Positions 5,016 through 31,723 of a stretch of 63,963 nt of DNA are shown one piece after another (positions within the stretch are counted from its first letter, which is position 1; each line of letters starts with the position of its first letter). The stretch comes from an uncultured Chlorobiaceae bacterium (GTDB lineage Bacteria > Bacteroidota > Chlorobiia > Chlorobiales > Chlorobiaceae). The position numbers were made by a program, and so were the translations under genes. Location of the stretch: positions 1-63,963 of the forward strand of contig CAIQGA010000020.1 in the NCBI GenBank assembly GCA_903871235.1. The letters are read 5' to 3'. The notes under the pieces were generated by a model, which searched no databases, was not told where the DNA came from, and saw only the letters and a list, made by a program, of their open reading frames with translations.

Positions 5016-5484
5016 TTTATCGATGGGTGAAAGTCTTTGTCGGAAAATATACACATAATAGTGCTTTTTTCCTTTTTCTGCGCCAGCGGCGTATTTTTAA
5101 TGCATCTCTAATTTGTTCGTATTGTTCATGTTGTGGATTTTTGTTGTTATAGTGTTATTCTATATTACTATAACTATATTGTGGCCAGGTTGTATGCAGA
5201 CTGATGACTTGATATGTTTGCTTGGCAGGATAACTTTTGTGGAGAATAATGCGCAGGGTTGATCGACCTCATAGAAATGGGATTGGTTTTTTTTGAAAGA
5301 GCAAAAGCTCTTGTTCTGCAAGAGTTTTCCCGATAAATAGTATTGACTATAGTTGTAGGATTGTTCGTGATATAAGGCGTATACCGGTGTGTGTCATGGT
5401 GCGGAATGTAGATTGTTAGTTAATCAATACCTCGTTTTATATATTGGCTCAAGTATTTCTTTCGAGTGTAACGCGATACCATCA
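5016..5484. other. AT-rich intergenic region between mnmG and secD
   Basis: About 470 bp between divergent mnmG and secD without a convincing gene. It contains a 7-bp inverted repeat TTATAGT/ACTATAA (5147-5153 and 5167-5173) and two imperfect DnaA-box-like strings (TGTGGATTT near 5132, TGTGGAGAA near 5238). A TTGACT at 5343 could be a -35 element for secD, but no well-spaced -10 was found. The secD frame is open upstream to 5389, but the residues added there do not look like SecD. Confidence 0.4.
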
Positions 5485-7350
5485 ATGAAAAATAAACGTT
5501 TTAATCTTCTCCTTATCGCAGTTGTCACACTTGTGGCTCTCTGGTCATTATGGCCTACCTGGCGTGATTACTCCCTTTCGACGCAGCTCAACAGTTTTTC
5601 TTCAGCGCAGGATAGCTTGAAGTATGCAATGGGGCACCGCGAAGAGATTGACGATGCCCGTAAAAAGAGTCTGAAGCTTGGACTCGATTTACGGGGTGGA
5701 ATGCACCTGGTGATGGAAGTTGACCAGGTGGATCTGTTTGAACAGAAAGCATGGAATAAGGACGGGAAGTTTGCTGCCATCCTGCAGAATGTAAGAGCAA
5801 AAGCTACGCAAAGCGATGCAAGGGTTATTGATCTCCTCTCCGTTGAATTCAGGAATGAGAACATCCCCCTGAGCCGTTATTTTTATGATATCCGCAATTC
5901 CAATCAGGAAATTGTAACAAAACTGGAAAAAGAGTCTGAAGAAGCTCTGATCCGCGCAAAAGAGATCATTCGTAACCGTATTGATCAGTACGGCGTGGCT
6001 GAACCAGTCATTACCACACAGGGTAGCCGGAAAATCATTATTGAGCTTCCCGGTGTTTCTGATGAAAACAGGGTGAGAAATTTGCTGAAAGGTACAGCGA
6101 AGCTTGAATTCAGGCTTCTTCGTGAACCAGAAGAGATGCTGAGGACGCTTGACAGGATCAACACCTATCTTGCACAGAACACTCAAAACGGCGCTGTCGC
6201 AGCGGCGGCTTTACCTGTTTCTGATTCCTCCGCCATTGCACCGGCTTCGTTACCTCTTGTGGCTACCACGCCCCAAGTGCCTGTCGGCAAGCAGCCATCT
6301 ACAAAACCCCTTTATGACGTCATAAGTGTTTCTCCTTATGGCACTGCTTATACCGCAGAGCGTTCGAAGGAGTATGTGCTTTCATTGCTGCATCGAAGCG
6401 ACATACAGGCACTGCTTCCCCAGGACAGTGAGTTGCTGCTTTCTGCAAAGCCTGAGGCAGGCAAGGATGGTGAAAAGCTCTACTCAATCTATCTTGTCAG
6501 AATGGCTCCCGAGTTGACTGGAGGTGTCATTACTGAAGCCAAAGCCACTTTTGGTTCGCAGAGTGTGCAGCCAGAGGTCATGATGTCGATGAACTCCGAG
6601 GGAACATCGAAATGGGCTCGTATTACTGGTGCAAACATCGGCAAGCGTATTGCAATTGTGCTCGACGGGTCAGTCTACAGCGCGCCGGTCGTTCAGTCAA
6701 AGATTCCCAACGGGAATTCAGTGATCAATGGAATTGGAAGTCTTGAAGAGGCAAAAGATCTTGAAATTGTGCTGAAAGCCGGTGCACTTCCTGCTCCGGT
6801 CCGCATTATTGAGGAGCGGACGGTCGGACCTTCACTCGGTGCCGATTACATTCGTGCCGGGATGCTCTCTCTTGCCTGGTCTTTTTGTGCCGTTTCGATT
6901 TTTATGCTGGTCTACTATAAAAAAGCCGGTATTGCGGCCGATATTGCCCTTGTGCTCAATATCCTGATTGTCCTTTCCGTTCTTGCAGGGTTCAATGCTT
7001 CCCTTTCATTACCGGGTATTGCCGGTATTGTGTTGACTATCGGTATGGCGGTCGATGCCAATGTGCTGATTTATGAGAGAATACGCGAAGAACTTGCCGA
7101 AGGAAAATCAGTGATTACGGCTGTGACACAGGGCTACGACCGTGCCTTTTCGTCGATTCTCGATTCACATGTTACAACCCTGTCGGCTGCCTTTCTGCTC
7201 TATACTTATGGTATCGGCCCAATTCAGGGCTTTGCCGTAACCCTGATGATTGGTACTTCCGCAAGTTTGTTTACAGCTATTGTGGTGACCCGTGAGATTT
7301 TCCATCTCCTGCTCGCCAAAAACCTTATGTCAGACAAAAGTTTCGGTTAA
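5485..7350 (+). CDS. secD: Protein translocase subunit SecD
   Basis: A 621-residue SecD. The start is placed at ATG 5485 ([14 protein letters not shown]), because the residues upstream lack the expected N-terminal membrane segment context. After TM1 comes the diagnostic [16 protein letters not shown] (motif D1), then the periplasmic domain with [14 protein letters not shown] and IIIELPGV, and the P1 head containing a low-complexity Ala/Pro/Ser stretch around 6190-6300. The C-terminal five TM segments include [15 protein letters not shown] and [18 protein letters not shown]. SecDF uses proton motive force to pull secreted proteins through SecYEG. secF follows after 21 bp, so the two are almost certainly one operon. 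Confidence 0.95.
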
Positions 7351-8409: not shown

Positions 8410-11673
<3,264 letters not shown>

Positions 11674-22869: not shown

Positions 22870-24591
22870 TCAAAACCGAAACCCAAATAGTCCACCCTCT
22901 TCCTGAGCGTCAGTGAGTACAACAGGAAGAATATGGTCATGAACATTGAAGCCGGGAGTTGTTTCCTTGAATGCGTCGTCTTCGTTCATGGTGACAATGT
23001 ACTGGAACCCAAGTTTTTCCGCAGTCTCTGCTCCAACTTTGAGTGCACTTGCAATCTGGCGACCATCGACACCGTCAAAAAGGTGGCTGTCGTGAACGAG
23101 AATGCCGGGGCCGATGCCACGCTTGGCACAAAGCCGCATAAGCATCATGTCGAAACAGAAAATCTGCATATTCTTTATGCCCTTGCTGCGAGAGCCTTGC
23201 ATGGGGAACTGGAATTGAGGACCGTTGGAAGTTTCATCCACAGTCATGCTTCCTGCTGATTCGTAAAGGCGTTTGGAAGTCTCCTCAAAAGCCAGAATGG
23301 CATCGGAGAGACGTTCTTTTTGTTCTGAAAAATCCCTGCGGAGGCGGAGGGTAAGGCGATTGCGCTCAATATCGAGCTCGTTTTTTGTGCCTTCCAGTTG
23401 CTCTGCGGCGGAGAAGCGCTGGCGCAGTAACTCCACTTCAGCCTCTTTTCGGGCCGTTTCCGTCTGGAGCCTGGAAAACTGATCGAGCGCACCATGGCTT
23501 TTCAAAAGATTCATTACCACTGAACGGCGTTCGTCGAGAGATTGTTTTTCCTGGTCACGTGCAAGGATTCGCTCCCTGGCAGATTCAAGTTCACCTGAGA
23601 GGTAGTCGCGACGGTTGCGAATAACTGATTCGTGGAAAAGCCGCACCTCATCATAGCGCTTGACGGCAACTCCTGGCAGTGAGATGCCTGCCTCAGCATA
23701 GATGCTCTCCAGTTCAGCAATTGGTGGCGGAGATTCTGAATGCATGGCGGTTTCCAAATCCCGGATAGAGCCGGTGTCAATGACATTGGCATTTGAAATA
23801 TCGCTGATCTTACGGGTGAGTTGGTCAGCCTCTGATTCAAGCTCGGAGTATTGAGGCAAAACACGGAACGCCGATAATTGGGTTTGCATTTCTTTGAGAT
23901 GAGCCTCGGCGATAGTCACTTGAGTGCGCAGGTCGGAGGTTTTTCCGATGATGCTCCCAAAAGCACCGGTTCCTGCTGCCTTTTTGAGTTCTTTCAATGT
24001 TTTTTCACGATCACGAATCCGCTGCCATTCGCTGGCAATTTGCCAATCAAGACCAAGGAGATAAAGAAGAGCAATCTGAAGGTCTCCAGGCTGCTGCATC
24101 GTGGCATGCTTTTCCGGAGTGGTAAAAGCCCCGCTTCGCTGGCGACGCACGAAATAGGGGAACAGCGAACGAAAGGTCGGTTTTCGGCCTTCTGTTTTTG
24201 GAAGGTTGTGCAATGCAAACATTTTTTCACCAAGCAATGTCGTCCACTCGGTGTTGGTTATGCTGCTCTTGTTGTTAAGAAAACCGTTGCCTTCCAGATG
24301 CAGTTTTGACTTCTCTTTCCCGGAACGTTCAGTTGTAATTTTTTCTCCACAAAGGTCGAAAGTAATACCAAAGGTTTCGTTGACAAGAGCTTCAGAACGA
24401 AAAAGTGACTCTTTCTCTGCATCTGCGCCAGAAAGAAAATCGATAATTTCAATCAAACTGCTTTTGCCGGCCCCATTTCGGGTTTGCTTGTTTGTGGCTC
24501 CAGCTTCCTTTTTGGCAATGAGAATATTCAGCCCAGAGTGAAACTCAAGCTCCTTGAAGCTGGGCAAGCTGCTGAAAACACGGTAAATCAT
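22870..24591 (-). CDS. ABC-three-component (ABC-3C) system ATPase, DUF2326
   Basis: A 573-residue Rad50/SMC-like ATPase. A Walker A NGAGKSS lies at residues 39-45, after an insertion (KEAGATNKQTR) typical of DUF2326. The centre (about 190-460) is rich in heptads and probably forms coiled coil. The C-terminal half has MQIFCFDMMLMRL and GILVHDSHLFDGVDGRQ, the Walker B/D-loop region of the family. In ABC-3C conflict systems such an ATPase is thought to sense nucleic acid or protein complexes and unleash an effector. The start overlaps the upstream small gene by 4 bp. A copy of its last 37 codons exists in the relic at 29809. Confidence 0.88.
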   Translation of the reverse strand: MIYRVFSSLPSFKELEFHSGLNILIAKKEAGATNKQTRNGAGKSSLIEIIDFLSGADAEKESLFRSEALVNETFGITFDLCGEKITTERSGKEKSKLHLEGNGFLNNKSSITNTEWTTLLGEKMFALHNLPKTEGRKPTFRSLFPYFVRRQRSGAFTTPEKHATMQQPGDLQIALLYLLGLDWQIASEWQRIRDREKTLKELKKAAGTGAFGSIIGKTSDLRTQVTIAEAHLKEMQTQLSAFRVLPQYSELESEADQLTRKISDISNANVIDTGSIRDLETAMHSESPPPIAELESIYAEAGISLPGVAVKRYDEVRLFHESVIRNRRDYLSGELESARERILARDQEKQSLDERRSVVMNLLKSHGALDQFSRLQTETARKEAEVELLRQRFSAAEQLEGTKNELDIERNRLTLRLRRDFSEQKERLSDAILAFEETSKRLYESAGSMTVDETSNGPQFQFPMQGSRSKGIKNMQIFCFDMMLMRLCAKRGIGPGILVHDSHLFDGVDGRQIASALKVGAETAEKLGFQYIVTMNEDDAFKETTPGFNVHDHILPVVLTDAQEEGGLFGFRF

Positions 24592-24836
24592 GGCTGTTTC
24601 CGGCTTAGGAGGCCATCCTGAAGCTCAATCGCTCCCAAGAGAAACAGGAGGTCAAGAGTAAGGACGTAGGCATCGTAGCGCAGGGTGGTTTTTTTTCTCT
24701 CTGCGGTAATGACCGAACGGGTAAGCTCTTCCCAGAGTGAAGAGACTGTCCTTGGCTGTGCCAAATGAGTGAGCAAGCGAGCTCCGACGGTGAGCAGTGC
24801 TCGTTCTTGCGATAAGTGTTTGGTAGGCAGAATCAT
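24588..24836 (-). CDS. ABC-3C system middle component (MC6-like)
   Basis: An 82-residue protein, MILPTKHLSQERALLTVGA, then TVSSLWEEL and YVLTLDLLFLLGAIEL. This matches the small middle component 6 of ABC-3C systems, a winged-helix-like adaptor linking ATPase and effector. It overlaps both neighbours by 4 bp (ATGA-type junctions), indicating a tightly coupled three-gene unit. Confidence 0.85.
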   Translation of the reverse strand: MILPTKHLSQERALLTVGARLLTHLAQPRTVSSLWEELTRSVITAERKKTTLRYDAYVLTLDLLFLLGAIELQDGLLSRKQP

Positions 24837-25735
24837 TCTATAACGTCTCTGGGTTCCTCAAAAATATCGCAGCGCTCAAAATAGTATGCAAGCACAGTCA
24901 ATACCGCCATCTGATGTTCTGGTGTCCCGATCTGGTTTCCGCCAGCCCACGTTTGTAGTTCATTGAATATTTTGTTCGGGTGCATTGTTTCTCGTAAATC
25001 CTCGTATTTTTTTCGGAAAGAAACTGCCAGACGCTCTCCCAGAGTTTCATCATGCCATTTTTCAAGGAATGCGGAAACTAACGGAGACTTTGCCAAGCCA
25101 TATTTGATCAGAGTACTTACGGTTTCAGAGAGGTTGTTGGCCTCGATCTTGCCAGGAGGAATGGCTTTCACGGTCGCACTGGTTGGCATTGTTTTGCATT
25201 CCAGTGATTCCAGCACGACTTGAATCTCTTTAAATCCGAGTCGCGCCTTTGTCTCTTCATCAGGAGCATGACCAAACCAGGATATCCGATCGTCCAACGA
25301 GAGTCTGCAAAAAATCTGCCGAAGTTCTTCCAGTCCCCAAGGCTCCAGAATAATGCCCGCATTGACATGCTCAAACTTGAGCAATAGCTCATGAATATGG
25401 GGCGGAAGTCCATCGGTTGCGTTATGGACGAAGGTCCATTTGTCGAAGTACCTGCTCCAATGCTCTTTTGCACCCTCAAAATCTTCCGTAATTTTGGCAA
25501 TAGCTCTCGCTGCATCCATTTCGTTGGGGGCATAAACCTGAAAAAGACGACGATCTGACTTGAGAAAGCCATCATTTTTTCGGTCACCAATATTGCCCCA
25601 TGGTCGGCAGGCCATAAAATCTGCTTTGTAGGCCAAACCCATCAATCGCTCAAAGAATGTTTGAAACTCGTTTCCCTTGGTTCGGAGATACAATAGTTCA
25701 AATTTATGTTCATAATAAGCGTCTTGCAGATTCAT
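24833..25735 (-). CDS. ABC-3C system effector-type protein, putative REase-fold nuclease
   Basis: A 300-residue protein, first gene of the three-gene cassette. Near the N-terminus GNEFQTFFERLM is followed by GDRKNDGFLKSDRRLFQVYAP (residues 50-70): an acidic residue, Asp, then a Q-x-Y in the place where restriction-endonuclease-fold enzymes carry Q/E-x-K. Family members of ABC-3C effectors often have this arrangement. The C-terminal half (about 200-300) is a helical region resembling the conserved C-terminal domain of ABC-3C effectors. Nuclease activity is inferred and the catalytic Lys is not obvious. Confidence 0.72.
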   Translation of the reverse strand: MNLQDAYYEHKFELLYLRTKGNEFQTFFERLMGLAYKADFMACRPWGNIGDRKNDGFLKSDRRLFQVYAPNEMDAARAIAKITEDFEGAKEHWSRYFDKWTFVHNATDGLPPHIHELLLKFEHVNAGIILEPWGLEELRQIFCRLSLDDRISWFGHAPDEETKARLGFKEIQVVLESLECKTMPTSATVKAIPPGKIEANNLSETVSTLIKYGLAKSPLVSAFLEKWHDETLGERLAVSFRKKYEDLRETMHPNKIFNELQTWAGGNQIGTPEHQMAVLTVLAYYFERCDIFEEPRDVIE

Positions 25736-25909
25736 GGCTTTTACGTCTGCGTGGTATTGTATTCGTTTTCAAAGTGAAGGTATGACGACAAAAAATACCT
25801 TTTTTATGAATAAATCGTTTTTTCTTATTCGTTTTTATTCTGCTTTTCGAATAAAAAAATAAAAATCGAATAAAATCGAATAAAAGCAGGGGTGAGATCC
25901 TTTATGACT
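25736..25909. promoter_or_regulatory. AT-rich spacer with CGAATAAA repeats upstream of the ABC-3C genes
   Basis: Between hsdR and the ABC-3C operon. CGAATAAA occurs three times on the plus strand (25848, 25867, 25877) and TTATTCG once in the opposite sense at 25825. CTGCTTTT (25840-25847) and AAAAGCAG (25882-25889) form an outer inverted repeat. This is a plausible operator/promoter for the cassette; no regulator is identified. Confidence 0.4.
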
Positions 25910-28705
25910 TTATCCCGTCAACACCTCGTTAAGTTCATCAATAATCGCCCCCGTCCTCTCTCCAAAAAGTTGCCACATTTTACCCCGGCCTCCATGCGCG
26001 TTGAAGGGGGTGAGGTCGAGATCGTCAGGCTCGATATGAATGCTGGCGGCAATGTGCTCCTTGATCATGCGCAGCCACTGCATCTGCTCTTCGGTGAACT
26101 TTTCGCCTGCGCCGGAGTGCTTGTTGAAGATCCATTTTTTGAAATTGGCGTCAACGGTTTTGTCGTAGAGGGTCAATACCGTGTCGATGCCGATGACGCG
26201 GCGGATGAGTGAGACGAGGGCGATGAGCTCGTTTTTCGGGCTGGTGCCATTGACCTGTTCGAGTTGCTCGTAAGCGTGCCAGATGCGCATTGGAGCCAGG
26301 GCGGGTTTGTCGGCTTTGAGGCGCTCAAACAGCTCGCGGATCATCCGGTAGGTGACCGTGCGATGCTGAAAGGGCTGGTTGTAGAAGATGGTGAGCGCGG
26401 TGATTTCATCTTTGTGCGCTTCAAGGTAGCTCTTGAACTCCCCGATCAGTGCTGTTGCCTTGTCGGCGCTTTCGGTGGCCCATTCACTTTTTGTGACCAG
26501 GTCGAGGTTGATGGTGTCAATAATCTGTTCATGCACGCGGCGGACGGTGTCGATAAACTCGTTCAGAGCTCCGTTAAAGGTGGAGCGTGCTTCGTGCAGG
26601 AGCGCCCGCCGTGCCTCTTCCCGCAACTGATGTGTTTCGGTTGAGGGGTTATCGCTATCCTCTTCTACAAGCGCTCCATGTAACGATTGTGCTTTCAGGC
26701 TGATAGCGTCGGGGTTCCAGGCGTCGAACAGTTCGCGGACAACCTGGTTGATGCTTTTGCCGCCCGTTTTTTCGATAAAGGTTGCCCGTTCCTCTTCGGT
26801 GATCTGCCGGTCGAGCCGGGCAAGGCGGCTGGCAAGGGAGATGAAGAGATCTTCCTCTTCGGCGCCGAAGGTGATGGCTTCAAGCAGCTCCTTCAGTGAA
26901 ATTGTGGGCTTGCGCTCAAGGGGTCGACTGTCGGTTTTCAGCGATCTGGTGACGCCGATGGCATCGACTATGACAAAGTGGGTTTTGGCGGAGGTGACGG
27001 ATGGGGTCACTTTTTTGAGGTCATCAAAACAGATGGTGCGTGTGCCTCGGCCTATCATCTGCTCAAAATAGTTGCTGCTTTTGACATCGCGCATGAAGAG
27101 CAGGCATTCGAGCGGCTTGACGTCGGTGCCGGTGGCGATCATGTCAACCGTGACGGCTATTCTGGGGTTGTACTCGTTGCGAAAGCGGGCGAGCAGTGAT
27201 TTGGGATCTTCGTCCGACTTGCAGGTGATTTTTTTGCAGAATGCGTTGCCTTCGCCAAACTCTTCGCGGATACTTTTGATGATATCTTCGGCATGACTGT
27301 CGGTTTTGGCGAAGACAAGGGTTTTGGGCACCTCGGTTCGTCCGGGGAACAAGATCGGCACTATCTCGCGAAAGGTCCGGATGATGTTGCGGATCTGGCT
27401 TGGATTGACGACATCACGGTCGAGCTGTGTGGACGTATAGGTGATGTCCTCGTCGAGCTGCTCCCACCGTTTGCGGCGGGAGAGCTTTTCCCGTTTGTCG
27501 ATAAATTCTCTCGCCTTGATTTCTGCGCCGTTTTTTGTGATCTCGGTTTCGATGAGATAGACGCTGTAACCCACATTGACGCCATCGGCTACGGCGCGTT
27601 CGTGGCTGTATTCGCTGACGATGTTTTCCTGGAAAAAGCCGAAGGTGCGCTTGTCGGGCGTTGCGGTCAGACCGATGAGAAAGGCGTCGAAGTAGTCGAG
27701 CACCTGCTGCCAGAGGTTGTAGATGGAGCGGTGGCACTCGTCGATGACGATGAAGTCAAAAAATTCTGGTGGAACCTTTGCGCTGTAGGCTACCGGTACC
27801 GGCTCTTTTGGCTGCCAGCGTTTTTCCGCCGGGTTCTCCTCCTCCAGCGAAGGGTCAAGCTCCTCGCCTTTCAGAATGGAGTAGAGGCGCTGGATGGTGG
27901 TGATGCAGACCTTACTGTCGCTGGCGATGGCGCTCGACTGGAGCCGCTGCACGTTGTAGAGTTCGGTAAACTTGCGGTTGTCGTCATTGGGTGTATAGGC
28001 CCGGAACTCCTGCTCAGCCTGTTCGCCGAGGTTGCGGGTATCGACCAGAAAGAGTATTCGTTTGGCGTCGCCGTGTTTGAGCAGGCGGTAGATAGAGGTG
28101 ATGGCGGCAAAGGTTTTGCCTGAACCGGTTGCCATCTGGATGAGCGCTCTCGGGCGTGCGTCACGGAAGGAGCCTTCGAGGTTGTTGATGGCGATGCTCT
28201 GGCACTCGCGCAAACCACGTTGGTTCAGCTCGGGAATGGAGTGCAGGCGTGCTCTGAGGCTCTGCTCCTTGCCAAGCCACTCGCGGAAGGTTTCAGGGCG
28301 GTGAAAGGTGAACACCGGCCGTGAGCGGGGTTTGGGGTCCCGGTAGTCGGTAAAGTGGGTCAAGATGCCGGTGCTTTCGTAGACGAAGGGGAGCGGGGCG
28401 TTCTGGAGGTGCTTCAGTTTGCTTGTTGCATATCCTGAAGATTGATCTTCTACAGAGGTGAGGCGCTCCCCCTCCTCCTCCCGTTTTGCCTCGATGATCC
28501 CGACAGGCTTGCGATCAACAAAGAGGACGTAGTCGGCCTCTGAGCCGTCCTGCATCGGGTAATGGCGCACCGCAATGCCCGCCGAAACATGCCAGTTGAT
28601 CTGGCTCTTCTCTTGAACAGCCCACCCCGCCGCCGTGAGCTGGCGGTCGATGGCGTCACGAGCTTTCTGCTCGGGCATCTGGTTCAGAGAGTTTTTATCC
28701 GGCAT
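25910..28705 (-). CDS. hsdR: Type I restriction subunit HsdR (system 1)
   Basis: A 931-residue restriction/translocase subunit. The N-terminal nuclease domain shows EADYVLFVDRKPVGIIEAKRE (Asp59, Glu72-x-Lys74, a PD-(D/E)xK site). The motor follows: Walker A MATGSGKTFAAITSIYRLL (191-209), VIDECHRS (DECH box), GLTATPDKR, VTVDMIATGTDV and MIGRGTRT. It translocates DNA and cleaves unmethylated DNA as part of R2M2S. It is the first gene of the defence operon. Its 3' end and an internal part are duplicated elsewhere (22719-22862; 29809-30289). Confidence 0.95.
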   Translation of the reverse strand: MPDKNSLNQMPEQKARDAIDRQLTAAGWAVQEKSQINWHVSAGIAVRHYPMQDGSEADYVLFVDRKPVGIIEAKREEEGERLTSVEDQSSGYATSKLKHLQNAPLPFVYESTGILTHFTDYRDPKPRSRPVFTFHRPETFREWLGKEQSLRARLHSIPELNQRGLRECQSIAINNLEGSFRDARPRALIQMATGSGKTFAAITSIYRLLKHGDAKRILFLVDTRNLGEQAEQEFRAYTPNDDNRKFTELYNVQRLQSSAIASDSKVCITTIQRLYSILKGEELDPSLEEENPAEKRWQPKEPVPVAYSAKVPPEFFDFIVIDECHRSIYNLWQQVLDYFDAFLIGLTATPDKRTFGFFQENIVSEYSHERAVADGVNVGYSVYLIETEITKNGAEIKAREFIDKREKLSRRKRWEQLDEDITYTSTQLDRDVVNPSQIRNIIRTFREIVPILFPGRTEVPKTLVFAKTDSHAEDIIKSIREEFGEGNAFCKKITCKSDEDPKSLLARFRNEYNPRIAVTVDMIATGTDVKPLECLLFMRDVKSSNYFEQMIGRGTRTICFDDLKKVTPSVTSAKTHFVIVDAIGVTRSLKTDSRPLERKPTISLKELLEAITFGAEEEDLFISLASRLARLDRQITEEERATFIEKTGGKSINQVVRELFDAWNPDAISLKAQSLHGALVEEDSDNPSTETHQLREEARRALLHEARSTFNGALNEFIDTVRRVHEQIIDTINLDLVTKSEWATESADKATALIGEFKSYLEAHKDEITALTIFYNQPFQHRTVTYRMIRELFERLKADKPALAPMRIWHAYEQLEQVNGTSPKNELIALVSLIRRVIGIDTVLTLYDKTVDANFKKWIFNKHSGAGEKFTEEQMQWLRMIKEHIAASIHIEPDDLDLTPFNAHGGRGKMWQLFGERTGAIIDELNEVLTG

Positions 28706-28934
28706 AGGGTGAAAGGAGAGAGTCGCAACACGAATAAAATGCTTTCTGCAATGTAGAGAACTTTCAAAGAACTACGGCAAAAAGAAAGCGGGGTGGTGGG
28801 GTTTTTTGACTTCTCCTTTACTGTAAAACTCTACTTTTTTTCTGTTTGGTCAAATTATCTGTACCTTTTTCGTACTATTCAGAGTGAGTTAACCTCGCAA
28901 GTGTTTCATAAAAAGAAGAATACCTTAATCCAAT

Positions 28935-29168
28935 ATGAGCACCATTTCTATTGCCGACATTCTTGAGCTTCCAGTGCAGGAGCGCCTTCGTCTCGTTGAG
29001 CTTATCTGGGATAGCGTTGCAGCAGTGCCTGAAGCTGTGGAAATCTTGCCTGCGCTTAAGGTTGAGCTTGAAGCACGCCTTGTGGAGTTCGAAGCAGACC
29101 CTGAAGCTGGCTACTGCTGGGGTCAAGTTAAATCACACCTTAATGATGGCTCATGGCGTACCGTCTGA
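28935..29168 (+). CDS. Addiction-module antitoxin (PF09720/TIGR02574 type), orphan
   Basis: A 77-residue protein MSTISIADILELPVQERLRLVELIWDS..., ending with a Leu-rich helix and WRTV. The N-terminal part is typical of the 'putative addiction module component' family, normally followed by a RelE/ParE-type toxin. Here only 113 bp separate it from an unrelated Phd/YefM gene and no RelE frame is present, so it looks orphaned or was left behind by rearrangement. Divergent from hsdR. Confidence 0.75.
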   Translation: MSTISIADILELPVQERLRLVELIWDSVAAVPEAVEILPALKVELEARLVEFEADPEAGYCWGQVKSHLNDGSWRTV

Positions 29169-29231
29169 ACATGCCGCAATGACAGGATGATTCAGTACAA
29201 TGCCCACTTACAGAACCAAAAAAGAACAAAT

Positions 29232-29260
29232 TTGACAATACGTATTAAAAGACGTACGTT
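29232..29260 (+). promoter_or_regulatory. Putative promoter/operator of the YefM-YoeB-like pair
   Basis: TTGACA (29232-29237) is followed 17 bp later by TACGTT. Two palindromes overlap it: AATACGTATT (29237-29246) and ACGTACGT (29252-29259). Autorepression by YefM/Phd at such palindromes is usual in the family; here it is inferred. Confidence 0.4.
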
Positions 29261-29281
29261 TTATGAAAAAGAGGAAACGCT

Positions 29282-29530
29282 ATGACTACAACGACTATAA
29301 GTGTAACGGGCGCACGAGCAAAACTTTACCAGCTTGTTGACGAAACGGTGAGTTCACACAAACCTGTTGTCATCAAAGGGAAAAGAGGGAATGCCGTTCT
29401 TTTGTCGGAAAGTGACTGGAATGCAATCTCGGAAACACTGCACCTTGTTTCTATTCCGGGCGTGCGCGAATCAATTCAGGAGGGGCTCAATGAGGAGATT
29501 ACTCAATGTTCGAAAGAGCTTGACTGGTGA
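29282..29530 (+). CDS. Phd/YefM-family antitoxin
   Basis: An 82-residue protein, MTTTTISVTGARAKLYQLVDETVSSHKPVVIKGKRGNAVLLSESDWNAISETLHL, the canonical Phd/YefM N-terminal DNA-binding dimer fold, with an acidic C-terminal tail that would wrap the toxin. It is followed by the YoeB-like toxin with a 4-bp overlap. Good Shine-Dalgarno-like AAGAGGAAACGCT precedes the ATG. Confidence 0.88.
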   Translation: MTTTTISVTGARAKLYQLVDETVSSHKPVVIKGKRGNAVLLSESDWNAISETLHLVSIPGVRESIQEGLNEEITQCSKELDW

Positions 29531-29790
29531 CTTGTCAGCTTGTTTATACAAAGCAGGCTCAAAAGGATGCCAAAAAACTTGCGTCTGCCGGATTGAAGCC
29601 CAAAGCATTGGAGTTGCTTGAAATTCTGCAAAAAAATCCATTCCAGACTCCTCCGCCTTTTGAGAAACTTGTTGGTGATCTTTTCGGAGCCTATTCAAGA
29701 AGAGTGAATATCCAGCATCGTCTTGTCTATCAAATCTATGAGACCGAGCGCATCGTCAAAATCATTCGTCTCTGGACTCATTATGAATAG
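29527..29790 (+). CDS. YoeB/Txe-family mRNA interferase toxin
   Basis: An 87-residue protein from GTG 29527, which overlaps the antitoxin stop (GTGA). Features: YTKQAQKDAKKLASAGLKPKALELL, then KNPFQTPPPFEKLVGDLFGAYSRRVNIQHRLVYQIYE and a C-terminal IRLWTHYE, closely matching YoeB (H-x-Y at the end, catalytic Glu/Arg/His region conserved). It cleaves mRNA in the ribosome A site in the family. Intact and presumably functional. Confidence 0.86.
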   Translation: MTCQLVYTKQAQKDAKKLASAGLKPKALELLEILQKNPFQTPPPFEKLVGDLFGAYSRRVNIQHRLVYQIYETERIVKIIRLWTHYE

Positions 29791-29808: not shown

Positions 29809-30289
29809 TCAAAACCGAAACCCAAATAGTCCCCCCTCTTCCTGAGCGTCTGTGAGTACTATCGGGAGGGTATAGTCGTGAACATTGAACTCTGGCGTGG
29901 TTTCCTTGAATGCGTCGTCTTCGAGCAGGCGGTAGATCGAGATGATGGCGGCAAAGGTTTTGCCTGAACCGGTGGCCATCTGGATGAGTGCTCTCGGGCG
30001 TGCGTTATGGAAGGAGCTTTCAGGGTTGTTGATGGCGATGCTCTGGCACTCGCGCAGAGCACGTTGGCTCAGCTTAGGAATGGAGTGCAGGCGTGCTCTG
30101 AGACTTTGCTCTTTTCCAAGCCGCTCGCGGAAGGTTTCAGGGCGGTGAAAGGTGAAGACCGGCCTTGAGCGGGGTTTTGGGTCCCGGTAGTCGGTAAAGT
30201 TGGTCAACAAGCCGGTGCTTTCGTAAACAAAGGGACGCGGGGCGTTCTGGAGATAGAACTACGGCAAAAAGAGAGCGGAGTGGTGGGTT
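29809..30289 (-). pseudogene. Mosaic relic of a second hsdR/ABC-3C copy (in-frame chimera)
   Basis: Three pieces in the original operon order. 30256-30288 matches the hsdR upstream region (28768-28800); 29923-30254 matches hsdR codons for residues about 101-209, including MATGSGKTFAAI; 29810-29922 matches the last 37 codons of the ABC-3C ATPase (EDDAFKETTP... GLFGFRF). The junction IYRLL/EDDAFKET is in frame, leaving a 133-codon ORF (29809-30210, with ATG at 30210). Everything between these pieces has been deleted. It is a decay product, unless the fused ORF has been kept by chance. Confidence 0.85.
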
Positions 30290-30397
30290 AAAGTTTCTGT
30301 GATTGTGTAATAAAATTGTACATTATTTGCAGATAAGCAGATTCCCGCAAGTAAATGTTGCTCCGTTATTACAAATTCTTTATTGCTCGTTCAGAAC

Positions 30398-31723
30398 ATG
30401 AGATATGGATTTTTTTGTCGTGATGCGCTTCGCCTGTCATTGGTCGCAGTGCTGTTATTGTTCGCTCTGGATGCTCAAGCCATGCAGATTTTTGTGAAAA
30501 CACTTACCGGCAAAACAGTCACCCTTGAAGTTGAACCGAGCGACTCCATTGAAAATGTAAAGCAGAAGATTCAGGATAAGGAGGGGATTGCGCCTGACCA
30601 GCAAGTATTAATTTTTGCTGGCAAGAAGCTTGAGGATGGACGAACACTTGCCGATTACAATATCCAGAAAGAGAGTACGCTGCACCTTGTGCTGAAGTTA
30701 ATGCCTTCATTAGATGAAGATGCGACAATAAAAAACCTTGTGGCAGCCCAGGCTTCTGCTGCCCGGCGATTTACTGAAACACAGAGCCGTAATGTGTGGT
30801 ACCACCTCGAATCATTGCCTGCCGATTTTGGTGCAGGGTACAAGAGCGCTGCGGCTTCAGCTATTAAACCAGAGGAAGTTGTTTCGCCGGTCGATAGAGG
30901 TGCGGAGTTGGCTTTCTGGTCAACCGGTGCGATAGATTTTGGTTCGGGGTTTGATGGGGCGAGTCGCTTTTCAGAATCGGGAGGAACCATTGGGCTTGAT
31001 ATTCCGCTTGATTCATGCTGGATTTTCGGGGTAGCAGTGGGCTATGGCAGTGGCAGGACAGAGGTCGATGATCGCGGTTCGGAGGTGAAAGCCCGGCAGA
31101 TTACCTCTATGGCCTATCTGTCGTTTAGTCCAGCCTCTCCGTGGAAACTGGATCTCATGGCTGGCTATGGTGATATCACTTTTCACAATACCCGTATCTC
31201 TACAGAAGGCACGGTTTATCCTGGCGTCCGTGATGGACATATCTACTTTACCGGGCTTTCTTCGAGTGGTTCGTTCTCTCTCAAGAGTTTTATGTTGCAG
31301 CCTTATCTACGCATTGAAGCCAGTACAACACGAATCGATGCCTCTTCCGAAAGTGGTGACAGTCAGTTGGCGTTAAGCTATGATAATCTGGATATGACGG
31401 ACGGCTCCGCCTCTTGTGGTCTCAGCGTTCATCGTGATATTCCTCTTGCTTCCGGCACGATCACTTTTTCATGCAGAGCACAGTACAGCCGGAATTTTAA
31501 TGGAGAGAATATTCAGGATATTTTTTACTCAAGTACAGGTGTTTCCGGAGGACTTTATTCGACGCGGAGTATGAGTAGTGCACAGAACGTCGGTACGTTT
31601 GGAGTCGGTTTTGGATACCTGGCGCACAATGGATTTCTTCTGGCGGGAGAATATCTCGGTATGCTGGGAACCGACGGCTATAGAGGAAACAGTATTACAG
31701 CCACTCTTCTGATCTCTTTGTGA
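30398..31723 (+). CDS. Ubiquitin domain fused to an autotransporter-like outer-membrane beta-barrel
   Basis: A 441-residue protein from ATG 30398 (TTG at 30383 would add 5 residues). Residues 1-28 are a signal peptide ending LFALDAQA; signal peptidase would cut exactly before [10 protein letters not shown], residue 1 of ubiquitin. Residues 29-101 equal eukaryotic ubiquitin at 65 of 73 positions (changes: I13V, T22S, A28Q, P37A, R42V, Q49K, S57A, R72K). All seven lysines and Leu8-Ile44-Val70 are kept. The C-terminal RGG is replaced by MPS, so conjugation is impossible. After a linker (about 102-165) the rest is a beta-barrel with alternating strands ([48 protein letters not shown]). No E1, E2 or deubiquitinase is nearby. 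Origin by transfer from a eukaryote is likely (inference). Confidence 0.92.

Follow-up and report, generated by a model that had tools for sequence, protein, structure and literature searches.

The window, by which we mean the whole analysed stretch of 63,963 nucleotides from an uncultured Chlorobiaceae bacterium, carries a gene of 441 codons (30398..31723, forward strand) that joins a signal peptide, a ubiquitin domain and an autotransporter barrel. The ubiquitin has lost its conjugation tail. Going by the modelled anatomy, we consider it probable that such non-conjugated ubiquitins are displayed as the distal tips of surface proteins and serve as ligands rather than modifiers. On sequence comparison, the window protein appears to be one member of a larger class of exported, anchored, non-conjugated ubiquitins. 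Ubiquitin is taught as an intracellular tag of eukaryotes. The parts of the literature we searched for ubiquitin with surface anchors, prophages or Chlorobium, mostly non-subscription and hence weak evidence of absence, yielded no paper on anchored surface ubiquitins.

Protein architecture and the lost tail

The reading frame starts at an ATG at 30398, with an alternative TTG possible at 30383. The first 28 residues (30398..30481) form a signal peptide whose Ala-Gln-Ala end abuts M1 of the ubiquitin domain. Domain residues 1-73 (M1-L73, 30482..30700) match PF00240 with E = 6.9e-29. They are followed by an altered tail, M-P-S, a short linker and a 31-residue helix (protein residues 109-139; together 30701..30814), and then by an autotransporter beta-barrel (30920..31720; PF03797, E 8.8e-32), all on the forward strand. 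The helix motif before the barrel is kept in orthologues. An AlphaFold2 model built on nine aligned orthologues has a mean pLDDT of 82 and places ubiquitin at residues 29-99, the helix at 109-139, and the barrel up to the C-terminus. In Foldseek, the modelled tip aligned with the solved ubiquitin 7owc_A at an rmsd of 0.6 Å and a TM (target) of 0.98, and the modelled barrel matched EstA (3kvn), AaaA (9oqa), EspP, and NalP (1uyo). Both by profile and by its beta-grasp fold, the domain belongs to the ubiquitin family PF00240.

As modelled, the protein has the anatomy of a type Va autotransporter, with a signal peptide, an N-terminal passenger, a pore helix, and a C-terminal barrel of about a dozen long strands (ca. 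12 are expected for this type). EstA, AaaA, NalP and EspP share the C-terminal helix and barrel and the N-terminal passenger, but their passenger is an enzyme or a beta-helix, while in the window protein it is a 73-residue ubiquitin. The gene would thus encode a type Va autotransporter with ubiquitin as the sole passenger. The protein would be exported by Sec and cleaved by signal peptidase I immediately ahead of M1; the barrel would enter the outer membrane, its pore occupied by the helix, and a natively folded ubiquitin would be left outside the cell as the N-terminal distal tip.

Compared with human ubiquitin, 65 of the 73 positions are the same, and the eight substitutions are exactly those originally predicted, namely I13V, T22S, A28Q, P37A, R42V, Q49K, S57A, and R72K. 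Also as predicted, K6, K11, K27, K29, K33, K48, and K63 are all present; in addition, the domain retains the Ile44 patch residues L8, I44, H68, and V70. Residues 74-76 are M-P-S in place of R74-G75-G76 and the chain runs on into the barrel, so that the window ubiquitin has no free Gly-Gly. A conjugatable ubiquitin has a free or exposable C-terminal Gly-Gly, and the window protein does not. The claim that the domain cannot be a conjugation donor is borne out by the absence of R-G-G and by the C-terminal fusion. No match to PF00179 (E2) was found in the window genome; control genomes likewise gave none.

Eukaryotic ubiquitin and the window domain share a fold and agree in 89% of residues 1-73, but the latter has no conjugation tail and no precursor cleavage site, is exported and, in the model, membrane-anchored, and is changed at R42 and R72. 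Both R42 and R72 are residues that contact E1. The changes at R42, R72 and the glycines are as expected if E1 no longer matters, and with its tail gone and these E1-contact residues altered the displayed ubiquitin would be no modifier. In yeast ubiquitin, the sites sensitive without added stress are R42, I44, K48, and G75-G76 (PMC4862753).

Conservation of the ubiquitin body

To place the domain among its relatives, we scanned genome contigs once, with KQKIQDKE and ADYNIQKE as seed words; 230 relatives were found and 80 loci kept. The resulting 87 distinct domains leave out the second domain of L064 (35 identities), the second domain of L004, which did not fit the ungapped alignment, and the duplicates L048 and L050, while L001 (the window itself) and L006 (the same as L004) were omitted as repeats. 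They include 12 domains, from ten loci, that have no clear signal peptide; some of these loci may be eukaryotic, truncated, or mis-started.

Human ubiquitin makes a poor standard of comparison here, since several of the window substitutions are frequent in the bacterial family: among the 86 other distinct domains, Q28 occurs in 50, A57 in 62, S22 in 38, and V13 in 17. The excess of Q28 and A57 is partly an artefact of the two seed words used in the scan. The remaining states are rare in the same 86 domains (P37A in 5, Q49K and R72K in 2 each, R42V in none). Toward the C-terminus, identity among the 87 relatives falls from 78% at R72 to 55% at L73, 47% at R74, 36% at G75, and 17% at G76. The R-G-G tail is kept in 11 of 87 relatives, or in 7 of 75 without the domains having no clear signal peptide. 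The sharp conservation signal is this decay of the tail, not the lysines.

The original prediction allowed that the retained lysines could make the domain an acceptor on which host ligases build chains, should it reach the host cytosol. We consider this very improbable. All seven lysines are indeed present in the window domain and in 54 of the 87 relatives. Still, eight random changes in 73 positions spare all seven with a probability of 0.43, so their presence in a single sequence carries no weight. As the seeds contain the surroundings of some lysine positions, scores for K27, K29 and K33 come only from the 53 sequences that lack KQKIQDKE, and those for K63 only from the 30 that lack ADYNIQKE. 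On this basis, K6 is kept in 67/87, K11 in 83/87, K27 in 53/53, K29 in 51/53, K33 in 49/53, K48 in 77/87, and K63 in 26/30 sequences; these fractions are likely upper bounds, since hits were ranked by similarity to the query, which gives conserved sequences an advantage. Mean conservation over the 87 distinct relatives is 0.91 for the lysines and 0.89 for the other 64 positions within residues 1-71, and 34% of random seven-position sets from this range are conserved as highly. At least one lysine is lost in 33 of the 87 relatives; K6 is replaced by arginine in 20 of 87. Arginine accounts for 31 of the 44 losses, and such a change keeps the charge but loses the acceptor amine. Moreover, a route into the host cytosol is absent, and the modelled architecture would place the domain on the cell surface. 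Hence neither selection of the lysines as ubiquitination acceptors nor the proposed reach into the cytosol is supported.

The Ile44 face is conserved no better than the remainder of the domain either, so that no binding face is singled out. The original prediction had named loss of the lysines or of the Ile44 patch without constraint as evidence against itself; this is seen in a few orthologues but not generally. One such case is L012, with K6R, K48Q, I44T, and H68S, where omega against L013 is 0.30, as relaxed as in the barrel. On the whole, the intact lysines look like a part of whole-domain conservation rather than a sign of ubiquitination.

Conservation is highest at core positions (0.94). 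This would suit a domain that is merely a fast-folding, protease-resistant N-terminal module aiding export or protecting surface proteins, with stability as the only constraint, as would the occurrence of one domain ahead of very different C-terminal parts. However, polar surface sites other than the lysines (our own presumed assignment of exposed sites) are still 0.85 identical to human ubiquitin (from which the lysines, at 0.91, do not differ; Mann-Whitney p 0.47), which seems to be beyond what stability would need, and yeast ubiquitin tolerates change at most positions (PMC4862753). We consider this folding role unlikely. Under the ligand reading, selection would act on the folded domain as a whole, with its lysines, to maintain a surface for non-covalent binding.

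Ten full-length orthologues (the window protein, G193, and L007-L014) allowed us to compare the two parts of the protein. Mean identity is 83% in ubiquitin and 36% in the linker and barrel, while pS is 0.82 and 0.74, respectively, and four-fold-site identity is 34% in both. With synonymous sites saturated in both parts, this difference means that ubiquitin has long been present within this family and is maintained by purifying selection. Recent transfer, offered originally as another cause of the likeness to human ubiquitin, is contradicted by the same data: between the window ubiquitin and its orthologues, pS is 0.67-0.96 (saturated) at 76-89% protein identity. A recent transfer of the domain from a eukaryote into the window genome is thereby ruled out; the best nucleotide match of the window ubiquitin among relatives, only 0.79, and the GC content of the gene (0.483, compared with 0.485 for the whole window) also count against it.

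Constraint on the domain itself is confirmed by dN/dS, as omega in the ubiquitin part of close pairs is mostly about 0.05-0.2. Pooled over 30 closer pairs with alignable remainders, which are not independent as members recur among pairs, pN/pS is 0.053/0.324 in ubiquitin and 0.231/0.427 in the rest. Relaxed constraint was found in the tandem copies of L083 (omega 0.47) and in the pair L027/L076 (0.31).

Ubiquitin and barrel distances among the ten orthologues are uncorrelated (Mantel test, r 0.12, p 0.17), and therefore the ubiquitin tip may have been swapped by recombination. In the pair L009 (1220-1439) and L010, 25 of 26 four-fold sites are identical in ubiquitin and 76 of 111 in the barrel (Fisher p 0.003), which fits a possible exchange of the tip.

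Anchors, phages, and plasmids

Nine relatives, L007-L014 and L017 (the barrel match of L017 being partial), have their parts in the same order along most of the protein; they come from beta- and gammaproteobacteria according to record titles where given. Other relatives come from Clostridia, Verrucomicrobia, Actinobacteria, Bacteroidetes, Prochlorococcus, KSB1, and methanogen-type archaea; these assignments rest on record titles, and many of the records are metagenome bins that may contain stray contigs. Of 89 domains, 77 have a hydrophobic stretch immediately before M1, and 68 of those also have small residues at -3/-1. Pfam anchors in the 89 proteins include 14 autotransporter barrels, 9 dockerins, 4 SLH, 4 IPTL-CTERM, and 3 type IX tails, and these classes may overlap. 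Among 41 proteins with domain coordinates, inspected individually, all 26 anchors were C-terminal to ubiquitin. With the protein anchored at its C-terminus, the N-terminal ubiquitin would form the distal tip. In G193, another member of the Chlorobiaceae, a signal peptide and ubiquitin are followed by two Ig-like domains and then by the same helix with a related barrel, as expected if the tip sits on a stalk. By contrast, the window protein has no stalk and its ubiquitin would sit near the membrane, which counts against the tip reading.

On viral contigs, we found two kinds of exported ubiquitin adjoining tailed-phage structural genes. The first is a ubiquitin-autotransporter gene at 10001-11446 of the 50.5 kb contig L138, between a minor tail gene and a tape measure gene; a second phage contig, L139, is 98% identical over this gene. 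The gene is flanked by a 187-base direct repeat, 84% identical and spaced by 1999 bases (L132:4486-4672 and 6485-6671), which looks like an insertion scar. The second kind, at L140:2322-2768 and on two near-identical phage contigs, is an exported ubiquitin with an IPTL-CTERM anchor, adjoining terminase, portal, and major head genes. Exported-ubiquitin genes are thus present inside phage structural gene clusters. Isolate phages (INPHARED) gave no matches. Judging from gene content, the viral hits L146 and L147 appear to be giant viruses of eukaryotes whose ubiquitin is of the ordinary kind.

Two further loci are of note. At L144:4811-5137, an exported ubiquitin has an intact LRLRGG end followed by a stop, with phage-tail-like genes on the same contig. 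On the viral contig L133, positions 5061-5330 encode a divergent ubiquitin-like protein without a signal peptide. We also considered plasmid carriage of the full gene and rejected it, as the 30 matches listed cover chiefly the barrel at about 25-28% identity; a ubiquitin-like domain was found on three plasmids.

Under the ligand reading, other lineages mount the same tip on other C-terminal anchors, and phages would help its spread. More broadly, and only tentatively, surface ubiquitin might represent a common and mobile type of tip ligand in bacteria and archaea: a near-eukaryotic ubiquitin, released at M1 and set on the C-terminal anchor of each lineage, partly carried as phage cargo (lysogenic conversion) and acting non-covalently on another organism.

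Genomic setting and possible partners

The window gene is the only ubiquitin match in its 3.3 Mb assembly. It is flanked by remnants of restriction genes and by rng, which is 98% identical to that of G327, the nearest same-genus genome examined. In G327, the ubiquitin gene is absent and the matching flanks are about 250 bases apart, compared with about 1980 in the window. This rng identity and the syntenic flanks rule out a contaminant contig. Ubiquitin profile matches occur in 5 of 394 sampled genomes of the phylum, 2 of 86 of the family (the window genome and G193), and 1 of 65 of the genus, the window genome being included in each count. The gene is a patchy acquisition.

Upstream, the reverse strand carries candidate ABC-3C defence genes and a type I restriction R subunit (22870..28705; Pfam PF10088, PF20275, and EcoEI_R_C; PADLOC PDC-M68 and REase_I), and the forward strand a YefM/Phd antitoxin and YoeB-like toxin pair (29282..29790; PF02604, PF06769), all of which lie outside the ubiquitin system. 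With these candidate ABC-3C, restriction, and YefM-YoeB-like genes near, the insertion place looks like a hot spot of gain and loss. The whole of 22870-29790 resembles a defence region, including candidate ABC-3C genes of the DUF2326/CTD10 type, and an extra restriction-subunit fragment lies at 29809-30210.

The closest characterised protein is BfUbb of Bacteroides fragilis, which, according to two reports (PMC3352274, PMC5705921), is likewise a eukaryote-like ubiquitin with a signal peptide up to M1, lacks the terminal Gly-Gly, and is patchy among strains. With 65 of 73 positions shared, the window domain is closer to the human protein than BfUbb, for which 63% identity is reported. BfUbb is also secreted as a free, diffusible mature protein of 76 residues with a C-terminal cysteine, and the window ubiquitin is fused to a barrel as the passenger of an outer-membrane autotransporter.

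If the domain is a displayed ligand, two kinds of partner would be likeliest: a protein of bacterial competitors, as with BfUbb, or a ubiquitin-binding protein of microbial eukaryotes, on their surface or in the phagosome. Under the first, narrower reading, the displayed domain would inhibit related bacteria on contact, in the manner of BfUbb, whose signal peptide ends immediately before M1, which has no terminal glycine, and whose synthetic mature form inhibits sensitive strains (PMC5705921). The similarly patchy distribution of the two genes and the adjoining candidate defence and toxin-antitoxin genes point the same way. Anchoring of the window protein does not, as BfUbb is diffusible, nor does the absence of a conserved immunity-type neighbour at 16 loci, although BfUbb seems not to need one. 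We regard a contact inhibitor as somewhat unlikely.

The second narrower reading, in which ubiquitin engages ubiquitin-binding proteins of protists or hosts in attachment or in survival after uptake, appears rather unlikely. As anaerobic phototrophs, green sulfur bacteria are not known to have a eukaryotic host; moreover, record titles point to methanogen-type archaea for some relatives, and the Ile44 face does not stand out. Nevertheless, in bacteria and archaea alike the body stays near the eukaryotic sequence as the conjugation residues decay, and purified BfUbb binds human E1 and inhibits ubiquitination in vitro (PMC3352274).

Whatever the partner, a body that hardly changes in exported bacterial proteins whose tail has decayed separates the constraint of conjugation from those of binding and folding, and exported ubiquitins are thus a natural experiment on the reasons for ubiquitin conservation. 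They also turn BfUbb from a one-species curiosity into a class, with testable cultured members in Neptunomonas antarctica, Rhodoferax lacus, and Ruminococcus albus.

Across 16 loci, we found no shared operon partner, save one gene beside three of them. This gene, of 332-334 amino acids and without a Pfam match, adjoins the ubiquitin-autotransporter at L011:9922-10920, L012:11192-12190, and L008:8825-9829.
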